64,000 nt of DNA from a virus. The stretch lies in IMG/VR virus record IMGVR_UViG_3300037193_002967, positions 1 through 64,000 of that record. The stretch is one strand, 5' to 3'. This document shows, piece by piece, positions 3,420 through 29,103 of this stretch. Position 1 is the first letter of the stretch, and each line of letters starts with the position of its first letter. Under the pieces are notes generated by a model that did not search any database, was not told the origin of the DNA, and saw nothing but the letters and a program-made list of their open reading frames with translations. Position numbers and translations under genes: made by a program.

Positions 3420-3980
3420 ATGGCATACGGAATTTATTATCCGGCCGGTTGTGCGGCAGCGATACCGGATCACTATTGCAATCCTTGCGAAACTCCTGAA
3501 CATGGAAGGTTGCGATCTGCCGCCTTTATTGCAAACGATTTCGAATTTACCGATCCTAGCAATCCGGATGAATGGGAAAATGGTATTGCTAATAAGAAGA
3601 TCATTATTATTCCTGAAGTAAATGGCAGTTTTGATGGCGGCAGTGAGGTAGAAGTTCCGGGCTATGGCGATCAGCAGACCAAGCTTACGGGCTATAACTT
3701 TCAGGCTACTTTTAACGACCCGAACTATAAACTGAATGCTGATTTTTATAACGCCATCAAAAATAGTAGGAATTACAGGTTTGCGTATAGAACTGAAACG
3801 CAGATTCATCTAACGCAAAACACTGTACAGGTTATCCCTAAAAATCCTGTTACAGAAGATTTGACCAGTGAGGTAGTATGGAATGTTATTGTAAAATGGT
3901 CTGAGGGGGATGTGCCTACGCCTTATGATATGCCGCAAGGAATATTTACATGTTTTGATTATAGTGGTGTAATTGTATAA
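3420..3980 (+). CDS. Tail tube (major tail) protein candidate
   Basis: A 186-residue, beta-rich protein. It begins with a Cys-rich segment (CNPCETPEHGR near residue 22) and has evenly spaced beta-strand patterns typical of the tube fold. It sits after the tail completion gene and is followed by a strong terminator-like hairpin, so it closes the head/neck operon. The assignment to the tube is by order and predicted fold and is not certain. An alternative is another virion decoration protein. Confidence 0.45.
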   Translation: MAYGIYYPAGCAAAIPDHYCNPCETPEHGRLRSAAFIANDFEFTDPSNPDEWENGIANKKIIIIPEVNGSFDGGSEVEVPGYGDQQTKLTGYNFQATFNDPNYKLNADFYNAIKNSRNYRFAYRTETQIHLTQNTVQVIPKNPVTEDLTSEVVWNVIVKWSEGDVPTPYDMPQGIFTCFDYSGVIV

Positions 3981-4011
3981 TTTTTGCGTCTGTCTATTTT
4001 CCTTTTACAGG

Positions 4012-4046
4012 TGGCGGGTTACAACAAGTGCCCGCCATAATTTTTT
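4012..4046 (+). terminator. Terminator before the tail spike genes
   Basis: A 7-bp stem TGGCGGG/CCCGCCA with a 12-base loop, followed by TAATTTTTT. It separates the head/neck operon from the spike genes. Because it lies between the upstream in-frame codons and the ATG at 4051, it supports the ATG as the start of the spike gene. Confidence 0.75.
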
Positions 4047-4050
4047 AAGT

Positions 4051-7000
4051 ATGAAAATATTATTAATTTTTATCTTATCACTTGTTAGTATATGCGCTTT
4101 TTCTCAAAGCACATTACCATTACGTGCAGATACAGTCGTAGTTGAAAAAGTAGCTGGGAGTGGTGAATTTAAATTGAAAAATAGTACAAGAGATACTACT
4201 GGCATACTAACTAATATAGGTGGTGGTAGAACACAGTTTAGAAAACCAAGAAAAATTAACGATACCTGTATAGTTATAGGGTTAGATACAATTTGTGGCA
4301 TTGGAGGGGATGATTTACCTGCTCAAGCAGGTAATCCATACAAAACATTAAGAACTGATGGAACAACAGCTACATGGGAGAACACGTTAGATTGGGTGGA
4401 TGCGAGAACGTTTGGGGCCGATCCCACAGGTGTGTTAAATTCTACAACCGCAATCCAAAATGCAATCAATTCCCTTCCAAGTACAGGAGGAGTATTATAT
4501 TTTGGACCTGGTACTTTTAAAACTGATGGAAATATTCATGTAACGCGAACTTGTAGAATAATTGGCGCATCTGGCACTAATGCTATGGGATGGAATGGGC
4601 CTCAAGGAAATAGGCAACATCAGTATGATTTAACTAAAATCACCTGTACATCTGATACTGCCAACTTGTTTATCTTCGACAGCTCTGGAACCATTATTGA
4701 ATACTGTTCGTTAATAAACACTTCTCCAACTACACCCACGCAAGGCTCAGGTATTAAATCCATGCGCCCTTCTACAAAAATAATGCATTGTGCAATTGCC
4801 GGATTTTACGATAACGTGTATATAAATGTCTCACCAGAATATTATATAGAGGATGTTTTTTTCTCAAAGTATGTACGATATGGTTTATATCATAGAACAG
4901 ACCTGGAGCCAGACGCAGGTGATCAGGTTTTAACCAGTTGTTGGTTTTATCCCCGTAACCATAATGCTGCATCAGCTATTTATGTAGAAAGTGGCGGTGG
5001 TTTAAAGATTTCTGATTGTAAATTCAATGCTAATTCAGTAGATACGCTTCAGAATAATTGCATAACGGTGTTATTGAACGCGCAAACTACGGTTGACTTA
5101 TTGATCAGTAATTGTTCATTTGAAAATTATTTGGATGATGCTATTAATATAAGAGCCATTAATGCTGGCCAGTTTCACGAAATACTGATTACCGGGAACC
5201 AGTTTGCCCCTAACAGCGCCAACGCTGATGGCATTGTTATCAATGGAGCAAGCGGTACAATCGCTTCAGTAGCGATTACTGGCAACGTTATGAAATTTAC
5301 GGGTGATACAGCGGTATCACTAACGAGTATTGCCAAAGTGTCGTTCTCAGGGAATAATATAGATAATTTTACTACTGCCTATAGTAGAGTGGATGTACCA
5401 GATTTCTCGTCTGGTAACATGATAGCTGATAATTTTTATCCTGCGGAACATTCGGACCGTTTTGTCAATGGCGAAGCATTTACCATGTTAAGAAATTCCA
5501 ATACAGGAAGTTCGGCATTTGCAAGAACGCGCATATTAAATGATGTGGGTCAAGGTATTTCAGTTGGCATTGGTAGTGTTGCAAGGGATAATGGGCTTGG
5601 CTTAATAGAAAGCACTGGACCTGGTGGAATTCGAATACATTCAACACTTACTGCCTCGCCAATAGACAATTACATAGATAATACCTTAATTACCAGACTG
5701 AAAAAAGATTCCATTAGCTTCTACAAGCCAGTCTCAAGAACAATGGAATTAGTAGACGGCTCATTCAATGTACGAGCATCAATACAGAATGTTGTAGGAT
5801 CATTTCAAATTAGTGCAAATGCTAAATGGGATGGTGATTCTTGGGAACGGTATTCGATAGGTGATCCAAGCTGGAATCTTAGTTTAGCTTCCGATGCCAA
5901 TCTTTTTTCTATTAGAAGAGCTGCATCTGGTGCAGGTTCTATAACATGGACAAACACTTTAACTGCGAATGGATCAGGGGAAATAAACATAGGCAATTTC
6001 ACGGATCAAGGTGCTTATACTTTACAGAATACAGGTGGCTTATATCAAAACGGCCTAGTATCATTAAATTTAGGTAGTGACGCAACGGGAGATACCTATT
6101 ATAGAAATTCAGGAAGTTTATTAACAAGGCTTCCGATAGGGACAACAGGACAAGTGCTAACTGTTAGTGGTGGAGTACCTGCATGGTCAAACAGCGTTAA
6201 TATAGCTACAGCGTCGCTTACTGCCAATAACGATTACATTCAAAATTGGAACAATAAAGATTTGCGTTTTGATTCTATAAAACTGGGCCGCTTATTCAGT
6301 TACGGGGTACCAAGTTTATTCACAGGAGGTAGACCAGCGAGTACACTGATACAATTAAATGCTACTAACACAACATACCCTTTATACATATCTCGGGATA
6401 TCAAAGACGGGTTAGGTAATGATAGTGCGTTTAGCAGACTTGTAGTAGATGCAGGAGCGAAAGCTATGCAAATAATAACATACAGAGAGAATTTACGTGG
6501 TCTCATAGGTGTGGGGGAAGGCGGCATATCTCTGGTCTCGGATACCAATACTTCAGATGTTTTGGATAACAGCCGAATATCAATTACCCATAGCACCGTT
6601 CAGGTTCTTGGTGACGATTCATTGGTATTGAGCGGTGTTATTCGCCCTGCGCAATACGGGGATAGTGTTTTGTCTTTAGTGAACATAACACATAGTAACC
6701 CGGTAGGAAACCGCAGCAATTACAAAGTATCGTATGTCCCTACTGTTAATACGCAGATAACGAAAGATTCTGCATCGGGAGTATCTTCAGTAGATATTAA
6801 CCTGTCGGCATACAGTAGTTATGATAGGGTGGTTATTTACTTAGATAAGGTAGAGGTATCGAATAATGGAGTTGAACTTCGTACCAGGTTCAGTAATAAT
6901 GGCGGTTCAAGTTTTGCGTCCGGCGCTTCTGATTACGAATGGTTGATCAATTGGAGAATAACCCCGAACGGTGCAGGGGTGAACGGTGACGATGCCGATG

Positions 7001-7266
7001 ACCATATCACATTGGTACAGGACATAAGCAACGTGGCCGGGCATTCTGCTTCAGGAGAGATCGAACTTTTACATTGCAATGATGCCAGCTACCAACCTAT
7101 GTATAAAGGCGAGTTTATCAGCAGTTTCACGACAACGGGTGCTATTATACGGGAAAGTGTTGGCGGAAGACAAACCTCAAGCACGTATGTGAATGCGATT
7201 AGCTTCTTTCCAAGCGCTGGCACATTTGATAAATTTAAGTATAGAATTATTGGCTATAAAAATTAA
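4051..7266 (+). CDS. Tail spike with pectate-lyase-like beta-helix and a signal peptide
   Basis: A protein of 1071 residues. The start at 4051 gives a typical Sec signal peptide (Lys, then a hydrophobic run ending ...ICAFSQS). From about residue 115 the sequence WVDARTFGADPTG, followed by a Ser/Gly-rich segment with AIQNAIN, matches the N-terminal part of the Pectate_lyase_3 family, and repeating short beta-strand turns follow to about residue 480. The middle and C-terminal parts are beta-rich and repetitive and end in a compact domain. Such proteins bind or cut surface glycans as phage receptor-binding spikes. A cleavable signal peptide is unusual for a virion protein that assembles in the cytoplasm; it may instead be exported. 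It is followed after 3 bp by a second beta-helix gene. Confidence 0.75.
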   Translation: MKILLIFILSLVSICAFSQSTLPLRADTVVVEKVAGSGEFKLKNSTRDTTGILTNIGGGRTQFRKPRKINDTCIVIGLDTICGIGGDDLPAQAGNPYKTLRTDGTTATWENTLDWVDARTFGADPTGVLNSTTAIQNAINSLPSTGGVLYFGPGTFKTDGNIHVTRTCRIIGASGTNAMGWNGPQGNRQHQYDLTKITCTSDTANLFIFDSSGTIIEYCSLINTSPTTPTQGSGIKSMRPSTKIMHCAIAGFYDNVYINVSPEYYIEDVFFSKYVRYGLYHRTDLEPDAGDQVLTSCWFYPRNHNAASAIYVESGGGLKISDCKFNANSVDTLQNNCITVLLNAQTTVDLLISNCSFENYLDDAINIRAINAGQFHEILITGNQFAPNSANADGIVINGASGTIASVAITGNVMKFTGDTAVSLTSIAKVSFSGNNIDNFTTAYSRVDVPDFSSGNMIADNFYPAEHSDRFVNGEAFTMLRNSNTGSSAFARTRILNDVGQGISVGIGSVARDNGLGLIESTGPGGIRIHSTLTASPIDNYIDNTLITRLKKDSISFYKPVSRTMELVDGSFNVRASIQNVVGSFQISANAKWDGDSWERYSIGDPSWNLSLASDANLFSIRRAASGAGSITWTNTLTANGSGEINIGNFTDQGAYTLQNTGGLYQNGLVSLNLGSDATGDTYYRNSGSLLTRLPIGTTGQVLTVSGGVPAWSNSVNIATASLTANNDYIQNWNNKDLRFDSIKLGRLFSYGVPSLFTGGRPASTLIQLNATNTTYPLYISRDIKDGLGNDSAFSRLVVDAGAKAMQIITYRENLRGLIGVGEGGISLVSDTNTSDVLDNSRISITHSTVQVLGDDSLVLSGVIRPAQYGDSVLSLVNITHSNPVGNRSNYKVSYVPTVNTQITKDSASGVSSVDINLSAYSSYDRVVIYLDKVEVSNNGVELRTRFSNNGGSSFASGASDYEWLINWRITPNGAGVNGDDADDHITLVQDISNVAGHSASGEIELLHCNDASYQPMYKGEFISSFTTTGAIIRESVGGRQTSSTYVNAISFFPSAGTFDKFKYRIIGYKN

Positions 7267-21772: not shown

Positions 21773-22252
21773 ATGTTTAACACTAAAGCGCAACAACAAC
21801 GAAAAATTCAACAAACCCACCACGAAATTGATACGAACCCCATGACACCTGAAGAATTAATGAAGCCACGGTATAAGGTAATCGCTGATTATCCACTAAG
21901 TAGATTTATAATAGGGTCTATTGTAGAAGGACAAAAAGGCAGATTTGATGAATGGTTTTTTGAAATAAATGGTAAAGAACTTCCATTCGACATAACACAA
22001 TACCCGCATCTCTTCAAAAAGCTGGAATGGTGGGAAGAAAGAAAGCTGGAAGAAATGCCGCAGTATGTGAAGGAATTCAATTCATTATATAAGATTGGGG
22101 AAGTCATAAAAGTTGCCGAATGGAACATGGGAGATGAAGAGCCCAATATACCTTGTTTTAGAGATGAGACGGATAATTCTTTTACATGGGTTCGTGGCTT
22201 TCATCCTGCCACCGAGGAAGAATATAATGCATACATAACTCAAATAACATGA
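21773..22252 (+). CDS. Hypothetical protein
   Basis: A 159-residue protein, Gln-rich at the N-terminus, with acidic and aromatic-rich middle. It overlaps the lyase gene by 4 bp. No motif is visible. Confidence 0.55.
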   Translation: MFNTKAQQQRKIQQTHHEIDTNPMTPEELMKPRYKVIADYPLSRFIIGSIVEGQKGRFDEWFFEINGKELPFDITQYPHLFKKLEWWEERKLEEMPQYVKEFNSLYKIGEVIKVAEWNMGDEEPNIPCFRDETDNSFTWVRGFHPATEEEYNAYITQIT

Positions 22253-23457
22253 AAAAACAATTGTTACTATTCATTCTTTTCTTAGTGGCCTTTATAGCGA
22301 ATGCGCAGACTTTTCCGATAAAGATCGACGCTATTCGATATGATGCGATGTTAGGAGTTGCTGTAGAAGAAAGTCTTGAGGGCGGAATGCATGTAACAAA
22401 TGTTAACGCCGGTGATTACATTGATTTCAAGATCAACATCCAAACCGACGCAGTGTATTTCTTCAAGGTGCGAACCGCTGGCCATGGTGGCATGCACGGT
22501 GGGATATTACAAATCCGTGATTCCGCCAATAGAATTTTGGGTACGATTAAAACGCCACCCACCCAAAATAAGCAAGCGTTTGCTATAGGAGCAGGCCGGA
22601 TTCGAATGCTTCCTGGATATAGAACCTACCGAATATACGCGATAACTGAAATCTTAAATTTCAAATCGATTGAAATTGATACGTCCAACTACCGGCACTA
22701 CATGACCTTCACGCCGCTGGTGGCCGGCAACAGCACCTGGGAGAATACCCATGATGTTAATGGTTGGATCAAAGAGATCAATAACGCCCGCCCTGCTGCC
22801 GCTACGATCGTCGAGAACCCCTTTGGGAAACCCGGCTGGGCGATGAAGTTCGAGCAGCGGAAGACTGATACCCCTGCGGCTGTGAGGGCTGAAATGAGGT
22901 TAACGAGTCTTTCTAATGAGCCGAGGGAGGGGTGGTGGAGTTGGAGTGAATACTTGCCATCTGAAGATTGGGCGGCGTCCGACCCGCATCAGGACGTTTC
23001 GGGGCAATGGCATGAGCGGCCAGATTTTCATTTAGGTGAAACATGGCGAAGCCCGCCAATTATGAAAAAAATTCAGAATGGAAAATATTGGGTGAATATT
23101 ATTTGGGCATCCGCTGCCGTCAACAGCAATCCATTCAGCTATGATGGACAGGCAACTATTGATTGTGGCCCTGTGTTGACTGATCAATGGGTTGATTGGG
23201 TATTTCACATTAAGTACGCTTACGACAATACCGGTATTCTGGAAGTCTGGAAGAATGGAGTTAAAGTGGTAGAAAGGATCAACATGCCGAACAGTTTCAA
23301 CGATGTTGATGTGCCGTATTTTAAGATCGGTGTATATAAAGGCGCATGGTGCTGCGCGGAATATCACGCCACATCCCCGGGCACGAAAAGAACTATATAT
23401 ATCCGCAACGTGAAAATAGGCAAACCGAATAGTTTTTATAATGAAATGAAACAGTAA
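22249..23457 (+). CDS. Secreted polysaccharide lyase-like protein
   Basis: A 402-residue protein. A Sec signal peptide (residues 1-19, MKKQLLLFILF...ANAQ) is followed by a carbohydrate-binding-like domain (about 20-140) and a beta-sandwich domain (about 150-400) with WWSWSEYLPSEDW, SGQWHERPDF, VDWVFHIKY and the closing FKIGVYKGAW. This pattern fits the heparin lyase I-like Polysacc_lyase family (PF14099). It should act outside the cell on glycans. GC content in 22.7-23.45 kb looks higher than in the rest, and it is isolated among early genes, so it may be a recently acquired cargo gene. Confidence 0.75.
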   Translation: MKKQLLLFILFLVAFIANAQTFPIKIDAIRYDAMLGVAVEESLEGGMHVTNVNAGDYIDFKINIQTDAVYFFKVRTAGHGGMHGGILQIRDSANRILGTIKTPPTQNKQAFAIGAGRIRMLPGYRTYRIYAITEILNFKSIEIDTSNYRHYMTFTPLVAGNSTWENTHDVNGWIKEINNARPAAATIVENPFGKPGWAMKFEQRKTDTPAAVRAEMRLTSLSNEPREGWWSWSEYLPSEDWAASDPHQDVSGQWHERPDFHLGETWRSPPIMKKIQNGKYWVNIIWASAAVNSNPFSYDGQATIDCGPVLTDQWVDWVFHIKYAYDNTGILEVWKNGVKVVERINMPNSFNDVDVPYFKIGVYKGAWCCAEYHATSPGTKRTIYIRNVKIGKPNSFYNEMKQ

Positions 23458-24152: not shown

Positions 24153-24500
24153 ATGCAAAAGGAAACAATATTTGAAATGAATGAAGTGATTGCCCGGTTT
24201 ATGGCGCTTGAAGAACGACATGACGAGTGGCGAGCACCGCATCCAACCCTTGTATTTCTTTATGATAATGCGTGGACGCCAGTACCTCGACTAAAATACC
24301 ATTCATCATGGGATTGGATCATACCAGTTTGGATCAAGTTCAGAAAATTAGAGTTAGATAATAAATATTTTTCCGAATGGTGTAATAGTTTAAGCTGGTA
24401 TTTATATAGTTCGGACGAACCTTCTCGCTTTGCAGAAAGACTATATTATGCTATTCAATGGTATAATAAATACAGTAACTCGTACTCAAATTTGTGTTGA
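24153..24500 (+). CDS. Hypothetical protein
   Basis: A 115-residue protein rich in Trp, Tyr and Arg. Its stop codon lies in the first pentamer of the first GYNNN array (24496-24500). Function unknown. Confidence 0.55.
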   Translation: MQKETIFEMNEVIARFMALEERHDEWRAPHPTLVFLYDNAWTPVPRLKYHSSWDWIIPVWIKFRKLELDNKYFSEWCNSLSWYLYSSDEPSRFAERLYYAIQWYNKYSNSYSNLC

Positions 24501-24580
24501 GTAAAGTGGAGTATAGTACTGCTATGTAATGTCGGGTGCCGTTCAGTGATGCGCCGTTATGTCTAGTATTGTAAAGTTTT
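24496..24580 (+). repeat. GYNNN pentanucleotide array 1 (17 units)
   Basis: Seventeen consecutive in-phase 5-mers, each starting G then C or T, the other three positions free; no unit departs from the pattern. The first (GTTGA) covers the stop of the upstream gene. It is followed by TAAAACAATAAAG and then the ATG of the 188-residue protein gene at 24597. There is no GATTTT tail here. Visible directly in the sequence. Confidence 0.9.
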
Positions 24581-24596
24581 TAAAACAATAAAGTAT

Positions 24597-25163
24597 ATGA
24601 TCTACACAGTAAAAATCGAAGGCGTTACGCCTTATATGCAACATCGCATGGACGATGTTAAATTAGCCGACTGGGAAAAGAACCGCAAACAGATCATCGA
24701 ACGTCCGGATGTGGCCCTCGAAGATGCAAAGCGGGCGGAATATCATTGTTACAGAAATAAAGATGGGCATTGCTATATCCCATCAGAACAGCTTAGAATA
24801 GCTATGATCAATGGAGGCACTTACTTAAAAAGTAAAGTTGGTACTAAAACCAAAAGTATGAAAGGCATTATTGCCGCTGTTCTTCAAATCACCCCTGAGC
24901 AAATATTGCTGCCAGATTATGATGAAATTGATAAAAGGTCAGCCGTAAATAAAAATGTTAAAGCCAGGGTAATGGTGATCCGCCCAAAATGGTCCCAGTG
25001 GGAAACCCAGTTTGATATGATCTTGGATAATGGGACTCTTACAAAAGAAATGCTTACAGAACTTGTAAATGTTACTGGTAATTATGTAGGCATCGGAAGT
25101 TATCGGCCTACTAACAATGGGTATTTTGGTAGATTCAAATTAAATGATATTTGCATAAAGTAG
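24597..25163 (+). CDS. Conserved phage protein between pentamer arrays
   Basis: A 188-residue protein. It starts IYTVKIEGVTPYMQHRMDD, has YIPSEQLRIAMINGG in the middle, and ends NYVGIGSYRPTNNGYFGRF near the C-terminus. I recognise this pattern from a widespread phage and prophage family of unknown function whose members end with a GIGxxRPxxxGxFGRF-like motif. The glycine-rich end is reminiscent of RAMP/Cas7-like loops, but this is weak resemblance. It lies exactly between GYNNN arrays 1 and 2, with array 2 starting 4 bp before its stop codon ends, which makes it the best candidate to bind them or their transcripts. Confidence 0.65.
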   Translation: MIYTVKIEGVTPYMQHRMDDVKLADWEKNRKQIIERPDVALEDAKRAEYHCYRNKDGHCYIPSEQLRIAMINGGTYLKSKVGTKTKSMKGIIAAVLQITPEQILLPDYDEIDKRSAVNKNVKARVMVIRPKWSQWETQFDMILDNGTLTKEMLTELVNVTGNYVGIGSYRPTNNGYFGRFKLNDICIK

Positions 25164-25244
25164 AGTGATGCGATGTTTTGCGGAGTAACGCAATGTTATG
25201 CTAAGTCACGTCAAGCGCAATGAAGTAACGTCCTGTACCGTATA
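25160..25244 (+). repeat. GYNNN pentanucleotide array 2 (17 units)
   Basis: Seventeen in-phase 5-mers; only ATGAA (25220-25224) lacks the GY start. The array starts inside the stop codon region of the 188-residue gene and ends with GTATA, then GATTTTTTT and AAATAATAAA. It has the same 85-nt length as array 1. Confidence 0.9.
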
Positions 25245-25263
25245 GATTTTTTTAAATAATAAA

Positions 25264-25344
25264 GTAGCGTCGCGTTACGTTGGGCTAAGTTAGGTGGCTG
25301 TGATGTAGGGCAAGGTGTTGTGGGGCGAAGCGCAGTTTAGTATA
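25264..25344 (+). repeat. GYNNN pentanucleotide array 3 (16 units)
   Basis: Sixteen 5-mers that all start GY, with one extra T (25299) that shifts the phase once in the middle. It ends GTTTA, GTATA, then GATTTTTT and AAA. Confidence 0.9.
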
Positions 25345-25384
25345 GATTTTTTAAATTTACTTAATTAAGATATTTTATTTTGTT

Positions 25385-25484
25385 GCGATGCAATGTTATG
25401 TCATGTAAAGAAATGTACGGTGGAGCAAAGTAATGTCAAGCCACGTGTAGTATCGTCAAGTCAAGAATAGTAAAGTTTAGTATT
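25385..25484 (+). repeat. GYNNN pentanucleotide array 4 (20 units)
   Basis: Twenty in-phase 5-mers; GAAAT and GAATA deviate (GA instead of GY). It is preceded by ATATTTTATTTTG, the same 13 bases as upstream of the XRE gene at 9486, a possible promoter. It ends GTTTA, GTATT, then GATTTTAT. Confidence 0.9.
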
Positions 25485-25519
25485 GATTTTATAGCCACTA
25501 AAAATATTTTTATTATACT

Positions 25520-25639
25520 GCTGTGCGTAGTTATGCGTGGCGGCGTAATGTTAAGTTGTGTAAAGTGGAGTTTAGTAAAATAAGGTGGAGTAAAGTAATG
25601 TCAGGCCACGTGTTGTATGGTAAGGTCAAGTTTAGTATA
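25520..25639 (+). repeat. GYNNN pentanucleotide array 5 (24 units)
   Basis: Twenty-four in-phase 5-mers; only ATAAG deviates. A stretch of about 35 bases (GTGGAGTAAAGTAATGTCAG and on) is nearly the same as in array 4. It ends GTTTA, GTATA, then GATTTTTTT and the leader of the next gene (ATG at 25663). Confidence 0.9.
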
Positions 25640-25662
25640 GATTTTTTTCAAATAAAAGAACA

Positions 25663-28456: not shown

Positions 28457-28796
28457 AGAGAATTTTTTCGACGATATAAAAGCGAAATATCCGCAAGCGT
28501 TCGAACACTTTATGAATTGGCTGGATGATTATAAAAAAGAAATACGATGGGATGAATTGTTTGCAAAAAATGCGAGGCTATCTGTTAAAAGTTCTGATGA
28601 TATTTACCCTGATACCATTAAATTTCATGATCTCCCATTCGATATGCAAAACGGTATACTTGCCAGGTTTGATATAGAAAAATTCAGTGGGAAGCTTGGA
28701 TATGAAAGTATGCTTAAAACTGAACCACGTCGAATGGAAAATCTTTTTGCTGCCGTTCAAACAGCTATTGAAAACAAAAATATTAAATTGAACTAA
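28440..28796 (+). CDS. Hypothetical protein
   Basis: A 118-residue soluble protein ending the run of small early genes before a terminator. No motif. Confidence 0.5.
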   Translation: MFNLNKENFFDDIKAKYPQAFEHFMNWLDDYKKEIRWDELFAKNARLSVKSSDDIYPDTIKFHDLPFDMQNGILARFDIEKFSGKLGYESMLKTEPRRMENLFAAVQTAIENKNIKLN

Positions 28797-28855
28797 ATAA
28801 AAATATTTCTTACCTTAGTACTGCTTCAATTTTTTTTGACTAAAAAATGCTACAC

Positions 28856-28884
28856 ACCCGCTTGTTTCTACTCGCGGGTTTTTT
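28856..28884 (+). terminator. Rho-independent terminator
   Basis: Stem ACCCGC/GCGGGT with a 12-base loop and a T6 run. It ends the small-gene operon. Confidence 0.75.
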
Positions 28885-28905
28885 GTCCCTTTAAATAATT
28901 ATCGT

Positions 28906-29103
28906 ATGAATAACGCAACCGAGATACTATACTACCAATGTTGGGTAATGTATGATAATGGTCGCCCTTCGCATTATGCCTTTGTTGATAGCAAATGCAT
29001 TCCGATAGAAGGACAGGCCCTGCATTTAAATGAAATTAAAAATTCTGGATTTTATTTATTACCACTTTTTGGATGGCGCGTTAAAAAGAAAATAATTAAA
29101 TGA
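28906..29103 (+). CDS. Small hypothetical protein
   Basis: A 65-residue protein with an amphipathic N-terminus and a basic C-terminus (WRVKKKIIK). Overlaps the next gene by 4 bp. Unknown. Confidence 0.5.
   Translation: MNNATEILYYQCWVMYDNGRPSHYAFVDSKCIPIEGQALHLNEIKNSGFYLLPLFGWRVKKKIIK

Follow-up and report, generated by a model that had tools for sequence, protein, structure and literature searches.

GYNNN arrays around a Vipr-like gene in a phage: a probable VIPR locus with a relaxed guide repeat

What kind of element keeps a G and a pyrimidine (Y) at the head of every successive pentanucleotide, and leaves the other three letters nearly random? The question is raised by five arrays in the window, by which we mean the whole stretch of DNA analysed: 64,000 nucleotides, positions 1–64,000 of the 72,173-base IMG/VR record IMGVR_UViG_3300037193_002967. 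An initial annotation, made from the letters, had suggested a protein that contacts RNA or single-stranded DNA once every five nucleotides. We analyze the arrays themselves, the gene that they surround, the relatives of both, and finally how such a repeat might be read.

Five arrays in one register

The arrays, numbered by position (Table 1), all lie on the plus strand and comprise 94 pentanucleotides, of which 92 start with G and 90 with GY (70 GT and 20 GC); the four that do not are ATGAA, GAAAT, GAATA and ATAAG. Across all five the register is broken once, by the extra T in array 3. These coordinates and counts reproduce the initial annotation exactly, down to that single T. The entropies of unit positions 1 to 5 are 0.15, 0.89, 1.93, 1.75 and 1.83 bits, i.e., positions 3–5 are near random, and position 5 is G in only 13% of the units. 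Except that arrays 1 and 2 open on the stop codons of the preceding genes (24498–24500 and 25161–25163), the arrays are intergenic.

Table 1. Coordinates of the putative VIPR features in the window.
Feature	Position	Strand	Description
vrRNA array 1	24496..24584 (units 24496–24580)	+	17 GYNNN units, then a T-run; upstream of vipr; first unit contains the stop codon of the preceding gene
vipr gene	24597..25163	+	188-aa predicted RAMP protein (Vipr homologue); family HMM to SUSP1 Vipr, E 2.4e-42; predicted Csm3/Cas7-like fold; PHROG 4652, annotated as unknown function
vrRNA array 2	25160..25252 (units 25160–25244)	+	17 units, then tail GTATAGATTTTTTT; first unit contains the vipr stop codon
vrRNA array 3	25264..25352 (units 25264–25344)	+	16 units, extra T at 25299, then tail GTTTAGTATAGATTTTTT
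vrRNA array 4	25385..25494 (units 25385–25484)	+	20 units, then tail GTTTAGTATTGATTTTAT; partial duplicate in array 5
vrRNA array 5	25520..25648 (units 25520–25639)	+	24 units, then tail GTTTAGTATAGATTTTTTT

Chance can be ruled out, as the initial annotation had argued: similar runs in shuffled DNA, which it had named as refuting, did not appear. The longest unbroken in-phase GY run in the window is 17 units, and the longest in 20 first-order Markov copies of the window is at most 5. For the array-rich intergenic stretch 25164–25662, 2000 simulations of its own composition gave longest runs of 2–5 in nearly all cases and a maximum of 8, reached once, compared with an observed run of 12. The minus strand of the window has no comparable GY run, and no period from 3 to 12 is comparable to 5 in the window except the harmonic 10. 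The scan of the phage record and its relatives that the initial annotation had proposed gave 29 matches to the GYNNN pattern in the whole 72,173-base record, as against 0 to the reversed pattern, and arrays in the 14 nearest relatives (see below).

Some sequence is shared among the arrays. The tail GTTTA GTATA GATTTTTT stands at the ends of three or four of them, and within 25405–25624 arrays 4 and 5 have seven successive units that are identical at positions 3–4 (GG AA AA CA CA GT AT), with position 5 or Y differing in four places; the two arrays may be aimed at homologous sites. The string AA AA CA CA GT, again at positions 3–4, is also present in an array of the relative L130. The array RNAs fold no more strongly than shuffled sequences (z −1.1 to 1.3) and no structured 3′ tail is evident in the window; such a lack of secondary structure suits a protein-coated guide. 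Rfam gave no meaningful match to the arrays, and sigma-70 and terminator scans stayed within one standard deviation of shuffles.

A predicted RAMP and its linkage to the arrays

The gene between array 1, on its 5′ side, and arrays 2–5, on its 3′ side, was modelled with a pLDDT of 86.5 from an alignment of 49 sequences. Each of the top 50 listed PDB matches to the predicted fold is a chain or complex of CRISPR RAMPs (Csm3, Cas7-like, Cas7-11). The TM-scores to PDB RAMP chains are moderate, about 0.5, as is expected for a minimal RAMP. By homology and predicted structure the 188-residue protein is thus best identified as Vipr, a small RAMP. Its homologues occur in 126 phage records, mostly of Escherichia and Salmonella phages but also of Gordonia phages, and in the rows listed (H1–H40, e.g., NC_031082.1 57710–58297 and PQ184807.1 gene 78) they are hypothetical or unannotated.

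The initial annotation knew of no named repeat with this form; a name has since been supplied. A 2026 preprint (PMC13142463, doi 10.64898/2026.04.26.720920) describes VIPR, in which Vipr, an ancestral RAMP, works with vrRNAs made of GGY/NN repeats. As described there, the vrRNAs bind DNA through NN pairs with 1-nt skips, so that the variable dinucleotides are the guide, and the systems are mostly phage-borne and directed at competing phages. In the phage SUSP1 the guide function is reported as proven, the guides being directed to coding DNA and skipping the wobble base. The published arrays have 9–16 repeats of 5 nt and an invariant, structured 3′ tail, the motif is a conserved GGY or "a related consensus", and an accessory vap gene is "typically" present, a wording by which vap is not an absolute requirement (PMC13142463).

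How well does the window correspond? Our control was the reference phage SUSP1 (KT454805), whose 28474–29061 product of 196 residues is matched by the family HMM (E 2.4e-42). As published, its vipr gene is preceded by one GYNNG array and followed by three, all in the 5-nt register seen in the window. The stretches beside vipr in the window, and likewise in 14 relatives, are tandem 5-nt repeats with hypervariable dinucleotides, as in VIPR. GY itself is kept in 90 of the 94 units and the preceding G in 13%, a departure from GGY for which the "related consensus" of the preprint may leave room. No vap gene was recognised near vipr in the window, and no neighbour is conserved in the 14 loci. The carrier is a tailed phage, possibly one of Bacteroidota; its 72,173-base virus record encodes a terminase large subunit (Pfam Terminase_3, 1.5e-39). 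On the homology of Vipr and the layout of the locus we assign the window locus to VIPR with very high confidence; its pentanucleotide arrays are almost certain to encode guide RNAs of the VIPR type, with a looser repeat than the published one. The RAMP-like fixed step on RNA that had been proposed from the letters is thereby supported, the adjoining protein being a predicted RAMP and a Vipr homologue. Positions 3–5 vary freely, as had been noted with it, but should not be taken for idle spacers: the guide of VIPR consists of the variable dinucleotides (PMC13142463). For the suggested involvement of RecT we find no support.

The phage further encodes two proteins that possibly serve to degrade host surface polysaccharide: one with CBM6 and polysaccharide-lyase domains (Pfam PF14099, 3.2e-33) at 22249–23457, close to the VIPR locus, and one resembling pectate lyase within the first gene block (3973–7266).

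Gene and arrays also travel together. A search with the 188-aa protein sequence alone gave 19 viral loci, and its alignment gave one contig of a bacterial MAG, L149. In the 14 nearest, namely the 13 viral loci at 49–80% identity and L149, GYNNN arrays adjoin the gene in 14 of 14, in the orientation of vipr. Relatives in which the GY positions were not conserved had been named beforehand as counting against the proposal; we observe the opposite, since the GY phase is kept while all else has changed, positions 3–5 being unrelated between phages. In one locus (L140) vipr has an internal stop, and its arrays are short. Five distant relatives at 22–27% identity (L141–L145) have no arrays in the stretches fetched. 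Conversely, a scan by pattern alone, for 14 GY units in phase, found 120 viral loci, of which 87 encode the same protein family; among the remaining 33 there are probably simple repeats. No other neighbour gene is conserved among the 14 loci of the clade, where the test gave one or two pairs at chance level; its other clusters are opposite-strand frames over vipr itself. Linked to each other, with no other neighbour kept, the protein and the arrays thus form the conserved unit.

The relaxed repeat and its reading

In most loci of the family position 5 is G (GYNNG, i.e., GGY). The clade of the window forms 13 rows of the tree (support 100/97), and in 13 of 13 position 5 is free; since the clade was gathered by protein, the pattern search cannot have produced this. 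Mixed letters at position 5 are found in six further rows, scattered over the tree. The fixed repeat letter of VIPR also varies among lineages beyond the described GGY form: position 5 is C in five loci (L023, L040, L047, L082 and L085), A in three (L062, L095 and L113) and T in one (L015), and elsewhere position 3 is fixed instead, as C (L027, L081, L109) or A (L029, L121).

Two residues of Vipr tend to follow the letter at position 5. Residue 127 is R or K in 45 of the 50 G-type loci and V, T, A or S in the window clade; residue 168, in the G-loop (GxG-X-xRP), is D or E in 44 of the 50 and S in the window clade. The tracking has exceptions, among them SUSP1 itself (S127, D168, G-type). Pairs corrected for the tree point the same way, yet their number does not suffice for significance (residue 168: median p 0.125). 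Arg occupies position 168 in each of the five C-type loci. A simple reading of these alignments is that residues 127 and 168 contact base 5 and that the contact was lost in the window clade: position 5 would no longer be recognised by Vipr because two possible contacts have changed.

The tails in the clade differ as well. They are U-runs in the window, L129 and L130, hairpin-like with GGCC in L132–L134, and similar to a tRNA T-arm in L149. This Draconibacterium MAG contig has three GYNNN arrays at 6577–6953, each closed by a T-arm-like hairpin CCCTGGTTCGATTCC[A/G]GGGGTGGAAC; for the first copy, GTTCTA 5′ of the array pairs with TGGAAC on its 3′ side, which resembles an acceptor stem joined to a T-arm. 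Such a tail could mean that the guide RNA is trimmed by tRNA-processing enzymes of the host. In this stretch of L149 ARAGORN detected no tRNA.

Are two or three bases of each unit read? Positions 3–4 fit codon positions 1–2 on the sense strand best, with a log-likelihood of −1323.7 compared with −1370.3 for the next frame, and this frame comes first in 2000 of 2000 bootstraps. This is as expected of guides to coding DNA in which the wobble base is skipped. The pair at positions 4–5 also slightly prefers that frame, and base composition could be a partial cause of the signal. Because positions 3–5 are all free in this clade, the same VIPR system might instead use a triplet code, in which three bases per unit pair without gaps, three target bases for five guide bases. 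The 13 of 13 rows with an unconstrained position 5 agree with it, as do long stop-free strings, e.g., all 20 units of array 4 in the window, 17 units from the start of an L130 array and 26 units of an L139 array. However, stop triplets at positions 3–5 are not significantly depleted (22 compared with 25.9 in shuffles, p 0.16), and, with positions 3–4 given, position 5 is predicted less well by the third codon base than by the composition of position 5 itself. These two tests led us to reject the argument that the protein-like strings prove a triplet code. Between duplicated arrays, moreover, position 5 is the most variable: three related pairs (43 units), one of them formed by window arrays 4 and 5, show 2, 5 and 9 changes at positions 3, 4 and 5. 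We therefore regard a triplet code as improbable. Our best reading of these indirect signals is that the published code runs on a relaxed scaffold with position 5 unread. That the GYNNN clade is a distinct form of VIPR, in which Vipr ignores one base of the repeat and this base, once freed, serves as the third letter of an ungapped three-letter code, is likewise unlikely, if a little less so. A milder form of this idea, better supported here than the three-letter code, is that Vipr residues 127 and 168 set the repeat letter at position 5, which has changed in evolution, being G, C, A or T in some lineages and free in others.

Targets, proposed function and known systems

No genuine target was found in the viral, phage, plasmid or Bacteroidota sequences searched, and the guide function of the window arrays is therefore an inference. 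In IMG/VR, exact gapped patterns (NN plus one skip) for array 1, array 2, the part shared by arrays 4 and 5, array 5 and one L130 array matched 0, 1, 11, 1 and 0 loci; examined unit by unit, these matches hardly reach past the seed and resemble chance hits, so that we reject them as targets. The collected loci, including near-complete records of relatives, showed no excess over reversed controls for skips of 0–2 once the loci picked by pattern were excluded. Peptide-level searches with the arrays in phages, plasmids and the PDB found nothing, array 4 with up to 3 mismatches found no site in 395 genomes from the phylum to which the Draconibacterium MAG belongs, and two arrays of that MAG found none in its own genome.

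The missing target is what one would expect if the arrays were Vipr-binding RNAs with no guide role, which might act as a decoy, signal packaging or regulate Vipr. The hypervariable positions 3–4 with their codon-like make-up speak against this, as does the guide function proven in the homologous SUSP1 system (PMC13142463), and we consider it very unlikely. A DNA element can be practically dismissed: five base pairs are about half a helical turn, so that a role in DNA binding is conceivable a priori, but the clade arrays all follow the orientation of vipr and accompany it in unrelated gene neighbourhoods, bending or segregation (the alternative first offered) and iteron-like binding sites gain no support, and a decayed microsatellite, already dismissed by the initial annotation, should retain a common unit where positions 3–5 are near random.

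We thus consider it highly probable that the whole is a VIPR locus in which the 188-aa Vipr is served by five vrRNA guides of 16–24 units with U-rich tails, one upstream and four downstream. If it works as SUSP1 does, the arrays would be transcribed as vrRNAs, one Vipr would bind per GY step, and positions 3–4 would pair with two target bases and leave every third one unpaired, position 5 being unread and ignored by Vipr in this clade; the binding of DNA would then repress genes that belong to competing phages or to other mobile elements.

On this reading an RNA-guided system described only recently also occurs, with relaxed repeats, in a clade that is separate and well supported. In its guide scaffold the GY every 5 nt appears essential and the G before it dispensable, residues 127 and 168 lend themselves to a direct test of guide-scaffold recognition by a RAMP, and whether two or three bases are read per repeat becomes a testable question. 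As far as we can tell from the main text of the preprint (PMC13142463), the relaxed repeat of the clade and the correlation of residue to letter are new details.

How does the locus compare with known systems? The class 1 CRISPR RAMPs (Csm3, Cas7, Cas7-11) share with the window protein a predicted RRM core and glycine-rich loop, and a filament-like reading of RNA in a fixed step. In contrast, the step is 5 nt in the window and 6 nt in those systems, and the window RNA is built of the repeating units themselves. The window locus has degenerate repeats only, with no CRISPR repeats, and Pfam and PADLOC find no Cas proteins among its neighbours; a class 1 CRISPR-Cas system, which has a CRISPR array and cas genes, does not fit these findings. 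TRAP on its NAG-repeat RNA is alike in that a protein contacts short RNA motifs at about 5-nt spacing. TRAP is a ring protein, however, unrelated to RAMP, and the spacers between its NAG motifs carry no information. An identity with TRAP does not fit the predicted RAMP fold, nor a conserved dinucleotide, GY, in place of NAG triplets.

Within VIPR, the window differs from the published loci in arrays of 16–24 rather than 9–16 units, in a U-run tail with no evident fold and in having no recognisable vap gene. Its residues 127 and 168 differ from those of most GGY-type Viprs, SUSP1 itself having S127 and D168, and its repeat is GYNNN, the G before GY being lost, where SUSP1 has GYNNG. With SUSP1 it nevertheless has in common a homologous RAMP, carriage by a phage, 5-nt repeats that start with GY in the same register, hypervariable positions 3–4, and one array upstream and several downstream of vipr.
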